A stretch of 64,000 bases of DNA from Subsaximicrobium wynnwilliamsii (lineage in GTDB: Bacteria > Bacteroidota > Bacteroidia > Flavobacteriales > Flavobacteriaceae), in contig NZ_VORM01000005.1 of assembly GCF_007997225.1 (NCBI RefSeq), positions 124,001 to 188,000 on the forward strand, read 5' to 3'. Each line of letters starts with the position of its first letter. Position 1 is the stretch's first letter. Below the pieces are notes generated by a model. It ran no database searches, had not been told where the DNA came from, and saw only the letters and a program-made list of their open reading frames with translations. The translations under genes were made by a program, and so were the position numbers. Below are positions 49,474-58,150 of this stretch, piece after piece.

Positions 49474-49983
49474 ATGAAAAAAGTATTCTTATTATTAATG
49501 GCAACTGTAATGTTGTCTGTAAGTTGTGAAGATAACAGTAAGAAAAAAGATCTTGCTGAGCAGCGCAACAGCCTAATGGTCGAAAATGACAGCATCAATG
49601 CTCATCAGGACAAAATCATGGCAGCCCACAAAGAGATGATGGCAGCCCACCAAATGTTTTCTGAAAAACTGAAAGGCATGGAAGTGAAAGATTCTTCTAT
49701 GTTGGAAGTTATTGCAAAGCATGATGTGATGCTCAAAAGACATGAAGCTGAAGCGAAAGGAAACGAGACCATGTTGGCAGGCCATAAAGAGCTGACTTCA
49801 GATTTCGATCAAATGAGCGAAGCTGAAATGGAAACGCAAATCACTCAAATGAAAGAAGATCATAATAAGGTCAAGAGTAGCCAATCTGAAATTATGGACC
49901 AGCAACAAACCATGATGGACGACCATCAAAAGCTGAAAGATAACATGGCTAATGAAATGAATAAGGATAAGGTAAAATCCTAA
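49474..49983 (+). CDS. Met/His-rich coiled-coil lipoprotein
   Basis: Protein of 169 residues from ATG 49474 with a lipoprotein signal MKKVFLLLMATVMLSVSC. The mature part is almost entirely helical and coiled-coil-like. It is rich in Met, His, Lys and Glu, with recurring patterns such as AAHKEMMAAHQMF, AKHDVMLKRHEAE and QTMMDDHQKLKDN. A metal-binding or envelope-tether role is possible. A T-rich element (TACTTTCG at 49439-49446) is near a TAnnTTTG -7 box. It is followed by a terminator. Confidence 0.82.
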   Translation: MKKVFLLLMATVMLSVSCEDNSKKKDLAEQRNSLMVENDSINAHQDKIMAAHKEMMAAHQMFSEKLKGMEVKDSSMLEVIAKHDVMLKRHEAEAKGNETMLAGHKELTSDFDQMSEAEMETQITQMKEDHNKVKSSQSEIMDQQQTMMDDHQKLKDNMANEMNKDKVKS

Positions 49984-50014
49984 CATTAGGCGATTAAAAT
50001 CTGAACAAAAAGAT

Positions 50015-50048
50015 CCAAATTTCGAAACTCGGAATTTGGGTTTTTTTG
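50015..50048 (+). terminator. Terminator after the Met/His-rich lipoprotein gene
   Basis: CCAAATT and AATTTGG form the stem around an 11-base loop, followed by GTTTTTTTG. Confidence 0.85.
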
Positions 50049-50132
50049 TTTTTATAATGTTCACTTCGCTTCAGAATTCTAGATTTTATATTGGTAATTA
50101 AGATCAATGGTAATTCCACTTTTTTTAGCAGA

Positions 50133-52001
50133 AGATAATGGTGAAAAATACCAACATCGGCACTTCAACAACAAACAATAACAGCACGCAGGTTTACGGT
50201 TTAAATTATATCGTTTTTTTTAATAATTACAGAGATCTCAAATCGAGATTTTCATTTGAGCGAAGCCATCGTTGGTGTTTTCCACCAACAATCCCAACCG
50301 AGTGAGATAAAAGCAAAATAAAAAACGAAATCCCATCACAAGCGCGAAGCCATTGTTGGTGTTTTGCACTGACAATCACAACCGAGTGAGATAAAAACCA
50401 ATTAAAAAACGAAATCCCATCACAAGCGCGAAGCCATTGTTGGTGTTTTCCACCAACAATCCCAATCGAGTGAGCCCACCGTCAAAATCAAAACTACAGA
50501 TACTTTTTTTTACAAAATTATAAACCTAATTGACGGAAGCTAAATATGACAGATTTAAATGAGCCTCTGCAATTCAAATGGTTTATAGAAAGGGACATCT
50601 CTATTTTTTTGGATGAACCAAAATCCAAGACAATGAGAAGATGTTGGTGGAAAACACCAACATCGGCACTTCAACAACAAACAATAGCAGCACGCAGGTT
50701 TAGGGTTTGAAATAAATCGTTTTTGATGTTTAGTAAACCCTCAGACATTAAACTGAAATTTTCACAAGCGTGAAGCCATCGTTGGTGTTTTCCACCAACA
50801 ATCACAACCGCGTGAGTCCACCGCCAATATAAAAACTACAGATACTTTTTTTTACAAAATTATGAACCTAATTGACGGAAGCCAAATATGTCAGATTTAA
50901 ATGAGCCTCTGCAATTCAAATGGTTTTCAGAAAGGGACATCTCTGTTTTTTGAATGAACCAAAATCCAAGACAATGAGAAGATGTTGGTGGAAAACACCA
51001 ACATCGGCACTTCAACAACAAACAATAACAGCACGCAGGTTTACTGTTTAAATTATATCGTTTTTTTTAATAATTACAGAGATCTCAAATCGAGATTTTC
51101 ATTTGAGCGAAGCCATCGTTGGTGTTTTCCACCAACAATCCCAATCGAGTGAGATAAAAGCAAAATAAAAAACGAAATCCCATCACAAGCGTGAAGCCAT
51201 TGTTGGTGTTTTTCACAGACAATCACAACCGAGTGAGATAAAAGCAAAATAAAAAACGAAATCCCATCACAAGCGTGAAGCCATTGTTGGTGTTTTCCAC
51301 CAACAATCCCAACCGAGTGAGATAAAAGCAAAATAAAAAACGAAATCCCATCACAAGCGCGAAGCCATTGTTGGTGTTTTCCACCAACAATCCCAATCGA
51401 GTGAGATAAAAACCAATTAAAAAACGAAATCCCATCACAAACGCGAAGCCATTGTTGGTGTTTTCCACCAACAATCCCAATCGAGTGAGCCCACCGTCAA
51501 AATCAAAACTACAGATACTTTTTTTTACAAAATTATAAACCTAATTGACGGAAGCTAAATATGACAGATTTAAATGAGCCTCTGCAATTCAAATGGTTTA
51601 CAGAAAGGGACATCTCTGTTTTTTGGATGAACCAAAATCCAAGACAATGAGAAGATGTTGGTGGAAAACACCAACATCGGCACTTCAACAACAAACAATA
51701 ACAGCACGCAGGTTTAGGGTTTAAATTATATCGTTTTTTTTTAATAATTACAGAGATCTTAAATCGAGATTTCCATCTGAGCGAAGCCATTGTTGGTGTT
51801 TTCCACCAACAATCCCAATCGAGTGAGCCCACTGCCAATATCAAAACTACAGATACTCTTTTTTACAAAATTAAAAACCTAATTGACGGAAGCCAAATAT
51901 GTCAGATTTAAATGAGCCTCTGCAATTCAAATGGTTTACAGAAAGGGACATCTCTGTTTTTTGAATGAACCAAAATTCCCATTAGCGAGAAGATGTTGGT
52001 G
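50133..52001. repeat. Composite repeat array of modules A, B and C
   Basis: Module A (about 174 bp) starts with hairpin GTTGGTGGAAAACACCAAC and ends with its reverse complement GTTGGTGTTTTCCACCAAC and CGAGTGAG. Module B (84 bp) ends with the same hairpin and GAGTGAG. Module C (about 164 bp) contains GACGGAAGC(T/C)AAATATG and GAGCCTCTGCAATTCAAATG. Order: A 50133-50306, B 50307-50390, B 50391-50474, C 50475-50639, A 50640-50816, C 50817-50980, A 50981-51153, four B 51154-51489, C 51490-51653, A 51654-51827, C 51828-51991, then a truncated A. No gene of recognised family lies inside; short minus-strand ORFs are a by-product of the 84-bp period. Confidence 0.92.
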
Positions 52002-52013
52002 TCTGAAAAGATT

Positions 52014-52052
52014 AGACCTCACAGGTTATCAAAACCTGTGAGGTCTTTTTTT
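52014..52052 (+). terminator. 33-bp palindrome acting as a terminator at the array end
   Basis: AGACCTCACAGGTT and AACCTGTGAGGTCT around ATCAA, followed by seven T. It is the third copy of the palindrome family at 1522 and 2605. Here the T-run makes it a good terminator for plus-strand transcription out of the array. Confidence 0.8.
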
Positions 52053-52247: not shown

Positions 52248-53528
52248 TTAGTTGCGATTGCAATCAAAACATTTTAGCAGTTTTGGGTTGAGTTTATTGT
52301 CTTCTGAGCCTTTTAGCGCTTCCGTGACTATACCTTGCCTATCGATCTCTGCTTTGAATTCCTTAGCATATTTTACCAAATCGTCCCGGCGTTGTTTGAT
52401 TTTACGGGTAATTTCGCTTCCGTTTAACTTAGCAATTGACTTTGGCCAGACGTTTAAGGAGGCATCTATGGTTTCATTGGTCATTAACTTTTGAAGTGCT
52501 TTGGCTTCCGCAGTAAATATGCTTTCTGGCGTATCAATCAAGAAATAGCGATCAAACGGATAAACCAGGCCTTCCATGAAATCAATTTTATCATCAAAAG
52601 AACGCAGGGTTGGAATAATCATGGGATGGCCTAAAATGGAGGGAATAATCCCTTCAGCATTGAAAAAAGCATTGTCGCGATCTCCTGGAATGGGAATGGC
52701 CAGATAATTACTATCAATTTTTTTAATCGCCCAGCCCCATTGTTTGGTGTGCCTGTCCCAATCTCCAATCAAAAAATCGAACAGTCGTGCTTTTATCAAC
52801 GCTCTCTTATCAATACTTAAATGGCTGCCTTGCTCCATTTTCAGTTTCTGAAGGTCTTCAGTATCCCGAATTTCAGTAATACTATCGAACTTGGTCCAAT
52901 CCACCCAGCTATCGGACTCATATTCCAATAGAAAAAGCCGATTGCCATATTTCTCATTATAATCCTTTAAAAAATCTTGCTTCGGAAGAAATACCATTTT
53001 TGGATGGGTATGGGGTATGTTGGCCGCTTCTGCCAATTGGGAGGCCAAAAGTGCGCCAAAAGGATGTTGGGCAGCAATTCCATCTACCACTATATTTTTC
53101 AAACCTAAGGTATAGGCAATATCAGGAATCAATGGTGTGGGATCTTTATTGACGCTTCGTAAACTATATTCAATGCCGTTAGGGCCTTCCAATTTTAGAG
53201 AGTGGGTTTGATTGCCTCCACCCTCTTCAAGTATCTTTACGCCACCACCAAATAAAGTATCTAAAAACAGGATTTGAACTGCAACCGGCTCAGACCACGC
53301 TTTGCGATACTGTTCCCCTTGCATTAGGTTTTTCACGAGATTGCTGTTGTAATTGGTGCTCGCAGCAATCAAGACAGAGTCGTATAATTTAAAATTGACC
53401 GTTTCACTATTTTTCGGACTTAAAATCTTGCTTCTGCCGAAGGTTTTGCTCGTACTGGAAACCGACCAATACAGCAATGCCACGAAAAGTAAAATTAAAA
53501 CGATTAGAGCTTTAAAAACGGTTTTCAA
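52248..53528 (-). CDS. Secreted or membrane-anchored protein with Fam20C/HipA-like kinase motifs
   Basis: Protein of 426 residues with an N-terminal hydrophobic segment (about 6-24). A glycine-rich strand (EGGGNQTHSLKL, 102-113) precedes a Lys strand (YSLRSVNKDP, 121-130). LFDFLIGDWDRHTKQWGW (about 249-266) resembles the DFLxGxxDRH catalytic loop of Fam20C-type secretory kinases. PIPGDRDNAFF (about 279-289) resembles the metal-binding Asp segment. The C-terminus has KCFDCNRN. I infer an envelope kinase-like fold; activity and substrate are not known. Bacteroidota proteins fused to BamA-type barrels carry a similar domain. Confidence 0.7.
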   Translation of the reverse strand: MKTVFKALIVLILLFVALLYWSVSSTSKTFGRSKILSPKNSETVNFKLYDSVLIAASTNYNSNLVKNLMQGEQYRKAWSEPVAVQILFLDTLFGGGVKILEEGGGNQTHSLKLEGPNGIEYSLRSVNKDPTPLIPDIAYTLGLKNIVVDGIAAQHPFGALLASQLAEAANIPHTHPKMVFLPKQDFLKDYNEKYGNRLFLLEYESDSWVDWTKFDSITEIRDTEDLQKLKMEQGSHLSIDKRALIKARLFDFLIGDWDRHTKQWGWAIKKIDSNYLAIPIPGDRDNAFFNAEGIIPSILGHPMIIPTLRSFDDKIDFMEGLVYPFDRYFLIDTPESIFTAEAKALQKLMTNETIDASLNVWPKSIAKLNGSEITRKIKQRRDDLVKYAKEFKAEIDRQGIVTEALKGSEDNKLNPKLLKCFDCNRN

Positions 53529-56398: not shown

Positions 56399-57139
56399 TT
56401 AAGCATTGTGTGTTTGTGTTACCTGCATTTTAGTTGCCAAAGCATAGATAACCAATCCAAATCCAATCTTGTTGATGGCATCTGCAATGTTATACACCAC
56501 ATCCACACTTCCAGTACCTATAAGGCTAGTGTACCATCCGTCGGTGCCAAGCATGTATCCTAATGGATAAATGGCCCAACCTACGAGCACGAACCAGCAT
56601 AGTATTTTGTGAGCGGTAAGGATATTGCCTCCAGCGGCAACAGCCAATTTTTTAGCACTCCCAAGCCATATTTCATAAACAATGTAGAAATAAGCTAATC
56701 CGGAGACACCACCCCAAAATGCTGCTTGATCCATGTAAACTGCTTCACCAAAATACCCAGTGACCAACATAACTACCGATGCGGCAATCAATTTCCACAT
56801 CAACGATGTTTTCGCACCAGCTACTTTGAGTATCAAGTAAAACTCAACACACATCAATGGTACAGTCAAGAGCCAATCTACGTACCTGAAAAAGGTTGGT
56901 GATTCGACATTGGCAAACCAGTAATCTCTCATGTAAAAATAATGTACTGCTGCAATAAAAGTGATTAGGCCAGATACCAAAATGGAAGTTCTCCACTTGC
57001 GATCAAATTGGCTAAGCGATAGAAAGAAAAAAGCAGAAGCAGCCATCATAGCCATACTGCCCACGAAAAAGGTAAATCCTACATAATCTGTTGGATCTAG
57101 TTTTGTGCTGACTTCAGCAAATAAAAACATTGTTTTCAT
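56399..57139 (-). CDS. Proteorhodopsin (green-tuned proton pump type)
   Basis: Seven-helix retinal protein of 246 residues. Helix C reads RYVDWLLTVPLMCVEFYL: Asp88 (counter-ion/acceptor), Thr92 and Glu99 (donor) form the DTE motif of outward proton pumps. Met96 at the spectral tuning site (position 105 of the reference proteorhodopsin) predicts green absorption. Helix G carries the retinal Lys224 in DAINKIGFGL, and His66 matches the conserved His75. The gene is divergent from the retinal-forming blh gene. A TAGTTTTG box lies at 57191-57198. Confidence 0.97.
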   Translation of the reverse strand: MKTMFLFAEVSTKLDPTDYVGFTFFVGSMAMMAASAFFFLSLSQFDRKWRTSILVSGLITFIAAVHYFYMRDYWFANVESPTFFRYVDWLLTVPLMCVEFYLILKVAGAKTSLMWKLIAASVVMLVTGYFGEAVYMDQAAFWGGVSGLAYFYIVYEIWLGSAKKLAVAAGGNILTAHKILCWFVLVGWAIYPLGYMLGTDGWYTSLIGTGSVDVVYNIADAINKIGFGLVIYALATKMQVTQTHNA

Positions 57140-57190
57140 AAGATTTGTTTTAATTAATAGATTGTTTAGTTAATTTTCAATAAAGTTAAA

Positions 57191-57198
57191 CAAAACTA
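57191..57198 (-). promoter_or_regulatory. Putative -7 box of the proteorhodopsin gene
   Basis: On the minus strand TAGTTTTG matches TAnnTTTG; a T-rich stretch about 19 bp upstream (57217-57225) could be the -33 element. The expected transcript start is near 57184, about 45 bases before the ATG. Confidence 0.4.
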
Positions 57199-57247
57199 AT
57201 CATATATTACCATAAAAAATATTCTATTTTTACAAAAAACTTAATCT

Positions 57248-58150
57248 ATGACCGTTAAGACTAGGAATATCTCAATTGTATCCAGTTTTGTATGTTTATG
57301 GCTGGCCTCATTGTTAGCGAGTGATTTGGAGACGGTGTGCGGATTCATACTGATATTTTCCTTCGGAATCCTGCATGGAGCAAATGATTTGTTGCTTTTT
57401 GACAAAATGGCCTTGCGCAAAGGAAAAAGCACGCATTTTATAATTCTGGCCATTTATATAGGTTTGGTAATCTTGGTATTCTCACTGTTTTTAGTGATTC
57501 CCTTGTGGGCACTTAGTGTATTTATTGTTTTTAGTGCCTATCATTTTGGTGAACAACATTGGGAGCGTTCCACTCTAAACAGCCCTGTATGGATTAAGAA
57601 ACTGTTCTTCGGAATTTACGGCCTATTTGTACTGGCTTTGTTATTTGTATTGAATGCTACGGAAGTGCTCCAAATTGTTTACAGCATTTCAAGCTACCAA
57701 TTCTCGCCGAAAATTTTGGAATATGGCTTTATAATCATAAGTCTGATGTTTTTGGCCATTACCGGCTATCTAGCGTTTAAGCAGAAGAATTTTCGTAAAA
57801 ACGGAATTGAAGAACTACTCTATCTACTTGTGTTTTCGATCATTTTTAAGATCTCATCGCTAATTTGGGGTTTTGCCATCTATTTTATTTTTTGGCACAG
57901 CCTCCCTTCACTTTACGATCAAATTACTTTTGTTTATAAGGATTTCAATACAAAGAATGCACTGGCTTATACAAAAGCAGCGTTCCCCTATTGGTTGATT
58001 TCGGTCGTTGCCATGGTGGCTTTCTATTTTGTATTTAAATCCATGGATATTTTTTATGCCTTGTTCTTTTCGTTTTTAGCAGCGGTTACTTTTCCACATA
58101 CTTTTGCGATTCACACGATGTTTAAACGTATCCGGAAAGGCAATTCTTAA
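57248..58150 (+). CDS. blh: Brp/Blh-family beta-carotene 15,15'-dioxygenase
   Basis: Polytopic membrane protein of 300 residues that cleaves beta-carotene to two retinals. Family histidines are visible in FGILHGANDLLLFDK, FSAYHFGEQHWERS, YFIFWHSLPSLYDQ and FPHTFAIHTMFKRI; these are the likely iron ligands. About eight hydrophobic helices. It is divergent from proteorhodopsin and supplies its chromophore; the carotenoid genes are not in this window. Confidence 0.92.
   Translation: MTVKTRNISIVSSFVCLWLASLLASDLETVCGFILIFSFGILHGANDLLLFDKMALRKGKSTHFIILAIYIGLVILVFSLFLVIPLWALSVFIVFSAYHFGEQHWERSTLNSPVWIKKLFFGIYGLFVLALLFVLNATEVLQIVYSISSYQFSPKILEYGFIIISLMFLAITGYLAFKQKNFRKNGIEELLYLLVFSIIFKISSLIWGFAIYFIFWHSLPSLYDQITFVYKDFNTKNALAYTKAAFPYWLISVVAMVAFYFVFKSMDIFYALFFSFLAAVTFPHTFAIHTMFKRIRKGNS

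Follow-up and report, generated by a model that had tools for sequence, protein, structure and literature searches.

An intergenic array in Subsaximicrobium wynnwilliamsii with features of a BIME built from GCC-footed REPs

Layout of the array

The array occupies approximately positions 50130-51998 of the window (the entire 64,000-nt stretch of S. wynnwilliamsii DNA analyzed here); it is flanked by an ORF on the plus strand that ends at 49983 and by one on the minus strand that ends at 52248. Neither ORF matched a Pfam family above a cut-off. Elsewhere in the window, at 56399-58150, a rhodopsin gene (PF01036, E = 1e-39) adjoins a beta-carotene dioxygenase-like gene (PF15461, E = 6e-37). Four A modules (starting at 50130, 50636, 50977, and 51650, the first with a degenerate hairpin) are each followed by a run of B units, and one C module comes after each run. 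Thus, the order A-B(n)-C with n = 2, 0, 4, 0 that was read in an earlier note on this DNA holds, provided that n counts the B units beyond the first after each A, and the 84-bp B unit described there reappears as the spacing of the minus-strand hairpins inside the B runs. Exact hairpin cores number 11, or 13 if up to 3 mismatches are allowed; ten hairpins are on the minus strand (B-type), two of them with 3 mismatches. The terminators that the same note placed on either side of the array correspond to terminator-like stems in the following list.

50005..50049, plus strand: terminator-like stem before the array (stem search)
50130..50221, plus strand: A module 1, degenerate A hairpin with ATCGGC foot (repeat family D4 and sequence)
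50271..50457, minus strand: B run of three hairpins, cores starting at 50271, 50355 (3 mismatches), and 50439, 84-bp period
50475..50635, plus strand: C module 1, linker from the last B to the next A, frame not conserved, limits by eye
50636..50727, plus strand: A module 2, hairpin core 50643-50661, GGC foot 3' of the stem
50781..50799, minus strand: single B hairpin of unit 2 (hairpin pattern search)
50817..50976, plus strand: C module 2, limits by eye
50977..51068, plus strand: A module 3, hairpin core 50984-51002
51118..51472, minus strand: B run of five hairpins, cores starting at 51118, 51202 (3 mismatches), 51286, 51370, and 51454, 84-bp period
51490..51649, plus strand: C module 3, limits by eye
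51650..51741, plus strand: A module 4, hairpin core 51657-51675
51792..51810, minus strand: single B hairpin of unit 4 (hairpin pattern search)
51828..51998, plus strand: C module 4 and the truncated start of a further A hairpin, limits by eye
52014..52046, both strands match: terminator-like stem after the array (stem search)

The C module had been credited with a short ORF in each copy. As a conserved protein this ORF did not stand up: the window copies are 54, 21, 29, and 21 aa long, and among the C modules with a matching start motif in a second array, located next to lptB (see below), 16 of 18 stop after 8 codons. The C module was therefore rejected as a gene, given that the frame is not kept and that the ORF also runs antisense to a fragment of a REP-associated tyrosine transposase (RAYT; REP, repetitive extragenic palindrome) gene at that second site. 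The alternation of hairpins with short ORF-like segments could also bring to mind an integron-like cassette array in which the hairpins serve as recombination sites. However, the segments are copies of one sequence rather than different cassettes with intact frames, and the stem motif GTTGGTG, judged by eye, misfits the attC core, GTTRRRY, so we consider this reading exceedingly improbable.

A dispersed hairpin with a GCC foot

Searching the 4.9-Mb genome with the 19-bp hairpin core (up to 2 mismatches) returned 152 places, 71 on the plus and 81 on the minus strand, as opposed to 0 and 1, respectively, for the reversed control; hence, the copy number of the hairpin is far above chance. The copies occur as singles (for instance, on contig C20 and at 66.8 kb of C88), as inverted pairs, and in arrays with differing linkers, the periods of which are ~310 bp on C96, C66, and C52, 371 bp on C25, 240 bp on C47, and 118 bp (alternating) and 68 bp on C44. 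The start of C25 (L016, 1500-3200) holds a different tandem family, with units of approximately GACGCAGATTTTGCTGATACCCGCAGATT alternating with A-type REP hairpins. The genome search for the modules, which had been proposed as a check, accordingly found them elsewhere in the genome, and because they recur, the array is better viewed as part of an element family than as a passive local duplication. The overall pattern, a dispersed short palindrome that forms inverted pairs and arrays with locus-specific linkers, is that of REPs and BIMEs.

A broader version of the passive reading holds that the hairpins were placed long ago and that the arrays grew through replication slippage and unequal recombination, with no transposase active now. 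The local 84-, 68-, 50-, and 34-bp periods do look like tandem duplication, and the data do not bear out the earlier note's use of the regular order and variable copy number as evidence against slippage, nor do they show that recombination was uninvolved. Against this reading, the same hairpin is found at many unlinked places, in both orientations and with unrelated linkers.

The REP unit has the form GCC-NNTGTTGGTG-loop-CACCAACANN, and two inverted units, with the GCC/GGC feet outermost, bound a linker. In one orientation, the hairpin consists of GCC, three variable bases, GTTGGTG, a 5-nt loop, CACCAAC, and three bases. Several of the arrays share two contexts, A (AGAAGAT-hairpin-ATCGGC) and B (CTCACTCG...GATT-hairpin-AATGGC). 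The foot was scored in those copies of the fetched loci that deviate from the core by no more than 1 mismatch, and the figures count copies rather than independent events. GCC was seen in 127 of 138 such copies in this genome, 33 of 36 in the relative G017, 50 of 54 in other family genomes, and 66 of 73 at named RAYT loci, of which three repeat G132, G362, and G182 as separate records. The second and third basal pairs are complementary in 125 and 131 of the 138 own copies, compared with shuffle means of 59.9 (maximum 75) and 63.7 (maximum 81). The foot itself behaves differently: the two positions beside the stem seldom pair (8/138 and 7/138 own copies), and the outermost position is complementary in 117/138 own copies, no more than in shuffles (mean 115.7), and in 4/36 in G017. 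The hairpins thus carry a near-constant GCC foot together with covarying basal pairs. With GCC at the hairpin end in 127 of the 138 own copies, neither a GTAG nor a CGTC tag was found there, and we therefore do not file the hairpins under the superfamilies so tagged.

The hairpin is sparsely distributed. With at most 1 core mismatch, it was detected in 5 of 57 genomes of relatives, a set that includes 22 other genomes of the genus (141 copies in S. wynnwilliamsii, 39 in G017, 2 in G009, and 1 each in G015 and G024), and the footed hairpin was found in 8 of 397 family genomes (135 in S. wynnwilliamsii, 27 in G058, 25 in G182, 6 in G212, 4 in G362, 2 in G132, and 1 each in G069 and G098). None of nine sampled sister genomes from the same genera as the hairpin bearers has it. 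The array was without a match in a phage collection, and its best score in an Rfam search, 32 bits, is far below the gathering score.

RAYT genes and the lptB-DUF808 site

In G362 and G132, inverted hairpins flank a 175- or 179-aa ORF with an HxH motif. The G132 and G362 products match the NCBIfam REP_Tyr_transpos profile (NF047646) at 71 and 66.8 bits (E = 9e-20 and 2e-18; cut-off 80) and Pfam Y1_Tnp (PF01797) at 16.4 and 15.8 bits (cut-off 23; E = 0.011), with a weak match to a solved TnpA-REP structure as well (4er8, E = 0.006). Because both NF047646 matches are highly significant, we read the scores below cut-off as divergence. The RAYTs of the relatives are ~170-180 aa long, with an HUH motif and a single tyrosine. 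Motif measurement was tried on 20 proteins and covered 18 (L175 and L189 were left out): HxH or a close variant, W, and Y are present, the HuH-Tyr distance is 76 in 18/18, NH[LIV]H occurs in 15/18, and YIH[QN]NP in 8/18.

A scan of a genome collection yielded 34 RAYT loci, in records titled Flavobacteriaceae, Chitinophagaceae, Cytophagales, Sphingobacteriales, and, in one case, "Chlorobiota"; 29 were examined, five partial matches being left out. At 22 of the loci, the sequence extends 130 bp or more to either side of the RAYT. Within 500 bp of the gene, 14 of these have a GCC-footed palindrome upstream, 11 have one downstream, 11 have them on both sides, and 8 have none, as opposed to 13 of 693 windows drawn at random from the same loci. 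The core at these loci is mostly TGTTGGTG; the exceptions (L182, L183, L192, and L198) keep the pairing. By exact pattern, 18 of 20 RAYT-bearing genomes traced from these loci contain footed hairpins (1-19 copies) and two contain none, and the reversed pattern scored 0 in all 31 genomes searched, among which the genome of L174 was absent; the nine hairpin-free genomes in this set were mostly chosen as known negatives and are therefore no independent control. The arrangement of the same REPs inverted around a RAYT is thus present in relatives, and S. wynnwilliamsii contributes a C-terminal RAYT fragment only.

A profile built from three RAYTs recovered close members in 3 of the 397 family genomes (G132, G182, and G362; E ~1e-108), all of which fall among the eight with footed hairpins; the chance of such an overlap is ~5 in a million, a figure that ignores kinship and the hairpin-first route of discovery. 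Among 38 chosen genomes, a close RAYT was likewise limited to G132, G362, and G182, and to S. wynnwilliamsii as a fragment. More distant RAYTs (E ~1e-31) have other palindromes beside four of five, with none found beside that of G366; those flanking the distant RAYT of G416 (L166, G416:C1) bear GTAG one base from the stem, not GCC.

Five of the eight hairpin-bearing family genomes have no intact close RAYT: that of S. wynnwilliamsii, whose assembly contains a fragment and no intact member of the GCC-hairpin subfamily, and G058, G212, G069, and G098, in which none was found. A close RAYT was not found in G017 either, despite 39 hairpins, but an assembly gap may account for this, as a stretch of N lies within the lptB array there (L062, 4739-4920; G017:C2). 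Widely spaced inverted hairpins in G212 were considered as an autonomous element and rejected, as two other ORFs lie between them and the genome has no RAYT match. The hairpin-rich G017, G058, and G212, in which no close RAYT was found, fit passive amplification; the association of the hairpins with a RAYT elsewhere opposes it.

The inverted hairpins around a Y1-type gene could alternatively be the ends of a miniature element of IS200/IS605 type, that is, of an ordinary, still moving insertion sequence rather than domesticated REPs, and the RAYT of G132 is indeed placed differently from those of the genomes in which it sits at lptB. This explanation appears very improbable to us. The S. wynnwilliamsii genome has six PF01797 matches, none with a hairpin (up to 3 mismatches) within 1.5 kb, on which account a Pfam Y1_Tnp gene was also rejected as the driver; the closest RAYTs occur about once per genome, whereas the hairpins are many; and four named records share one gene order. 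PF01797 had no matches in G017, G009, or G015. The missing Y1_Tnp link spoke against a RAYT altogether until the divergent RAYT, below the PF01797 cut-off, was found. In S. wynnwilliamsii itself (G000), one Y1_Tnp domain lies inside a long ORF resembling a DNA methylase (L023, C88:318159-321359), beside many in-frame repeats that read REHAPLAEE(E)G and may stem from the in-frame insertion of a further REP family; a Y1_Tnp-like domain forms the N-terminal part of a 528-aa frame (L027, C25:40673-43948), the C-terminal part of which resembles, by eye, coproporphyrinogen oxidase (HemF).

The four named records are those of Gelidibacter salicanalis, Winogradskyella undariae, W. pacifica, and UBA5534; in each, the RAYT is located between two genes that we take to be lptB and DUF808, labels that do not come from annotation. 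The RAYT of W. pacifica R3187 (L179) at this site is interrupted in frame and the hairpins remain, a possible case of enzyme loss. In S. wynnwilliamsii, contig C66 runs from lptB into an array at its end, C52 opens with an array that precedes DUF808, and C96 consists almost wholly of array. The same RAYT C-terminus (E = 2e-6 each) stands at the end of both C66 and C96 and is 60-85% identical over 20-39 aa to L172, L174, and L175. C66 and C96 have exactly 127 bp in common at their ends, as do C96 and C52 at their starts, which is the pattern that overlapping contigs around a collapsed repeat should give. A single lptB-DUF808 array thus probably contains the RAYT twice, in nearly identical copies whose gene body the assembly lacks, and the genome presumably encodes a working RAYT. 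The start of C96 was tried as the RAYT N-terminus and gave no convincing match. Accordingly, the check for a REP-type transposase elsewhere in the genome that the earlier note had called for turned up the C-terminal fragment of a matching RAYT; the observation that no transposase is adjacent remains correct for the window array, next to which there is none, but does not extend to the genome. The lptB-DUF808 gap of G058 has hairpins and no RAYT. Within the genus (23 lptB loci in 22 genomes; hairpins with up to 5 mismatches within 1.5 kb), hairpins follow lptB in G000, G017, G009, and G015; the remaining 18 genomes have none there. A single intact hairpin in G009 and in G015 takes the place of the array of G017 at this site, a further observation that suits passive amplification.

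The units of C96, C66, and C52 match the window units over A-linker-B at 76-80%, and the grammar A-B(n)-C is present in C96 and C66 too. The C-module variant of one C52 unit looks, by eye, closer to the window C, and one C25 unit has only hairpins and short motifs in common with the window units. Judged from these comparisons, the array in the window is related to the home array at lptB-DUF808, with linkers common to both, and this sharing of linkers by two distant loci is again at odds with passive amplification, which we regard as unlikely as a general explanation; still, it may account for the copy number inside each array. Nine orthologues of the gene at 52248 within the genus have no exact hairpin within 1.5 kb downstream, so the array looks specific to the S. 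wynnwilliamsii genome; the upstream neighbor is kept in 8 of the 9, and the genes on the other side of the array were not found at these nine loci. The direction of spread was presumably from the home array to the window array.

Proposed origin and known systems

Taken together, we interpret the array as a BIME of GCC-footed REPs that were dispersed by an atypical Bacteroidota RAYT whose home is the lptB-DUF808 gap, a reading to which we assign a probability of about 0.8. In such a BIME, REPs are clustered locally, some direct and some inverted, and their linkers are amplified. The most likely agent of hairpin dispersal is a small single-strand transposase whose gene lies elsewhere. The TnpA-REP enzymes that have been studied, as presented in passages of PMC8266576, recognize a footed single-stranded hairpin, cleave nearby, and transfer the strand, and BIMEs have been proposed, in passages of PMC2817692, to be non-autonomous elements mobilized by RAYTs. 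By analogy with the RAYTs studied, the home RAYT would bind the GCC-footed hairpin on single-stranded DNA, cut beside it, and transfer the strand, carrying REP-bounded units to further intergenic sites, where they would then multiply locally through RAYT action or recombination. Cleavage and transposition of the hairpin units by this RAYT are suggested by that analogy, and the local expansion may be due to either the enzyme or ordinary recombination. An empty site with precise ends did not turn up.

A wider proposal, which we hold to be evenly balanced, is that a class of GCC-footed REPs with its own RAYT subfamily extends through Bacteroidota, with a near-constant core (TGTTGGTG/CACCAACA) from Flavobacteriaceae to Chitinophagaceae, variable loop and basal pairs, an ancestral lptB-DUF808 home in several flavobacterial genera, and A-B(n)-C units that seed satellite arrays. 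If it is true, such a class would contrast with the fast-changing, species-specific REPs. The BIME reading itself makes an unexplained array part of a REP-RAYT system that is open to testing, in a phylum for which REPs have been described as atypical. It comes with a recognition hypothesis (GCC foot plus TGTTGGTG stem) for an enzyme below the usual Pfam cut-off and with a home locus at which gain, loss, and daughter arrays can be traced across genera. The case further suggests that such arrays may break short-read assemblies and hide the transposase gene.

The 17-base core, in four spellings, did not turn up in a search of the main text of a set of open-licence PMC papers. REPINs consist of an inverted REP doublet as the unit, and the present hairpins share this organization; unlike in REPINs, long arrays are prominent in the GCC-footed system. 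Palindromic repeats tagged with CGTC have been reported in Bacteroidetes among other phyla (PMC3733652, in part); the GTAG and CGTC repeats treated there are likewise footed or tagged palindromes, both dispersed and clustered, but the foot here is GCC and neither tag. Portions of Nunvar et al. 2010 (PMC2817692) describe REP/BIME systems with alternating palindromes, non-homologous linkers, variable module number, a RAYT between inverted REPs, and arrays beside the RAYT. All five features recur in the GCC-footed system, and the array, which had been put forward as an undescribed element, thus belongs with features already on record, the differences being a foot of GCC instead of GTAG, a host in Bacteroidota, and a stem core kept across families.

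A further close counterpart is RAYT subclass 2.6, or Bertels group 5, which main-text passages of a 2018 survey (PMC6006769) place in Bacteroidetes, with a length of ~179 aa, NHxH and YIHxNP motifs, and atypical flanking structures that lack GT[AG]G and are recurrent in the genome. The GCC foot, the shared core, the lptB-DUF808 home, and the composite arrays were not found in those passages, and the HuH-Tyr distance of 76 differs from the subclass median of 82 published there. The Bacteroidetes host, the protein length, and the recurrent non-GT[AG]G flanking structures agree, and the motifs do so in part of the 18 proteins measured; the present system resembles the published subclass 2.6 and fits its description in part.
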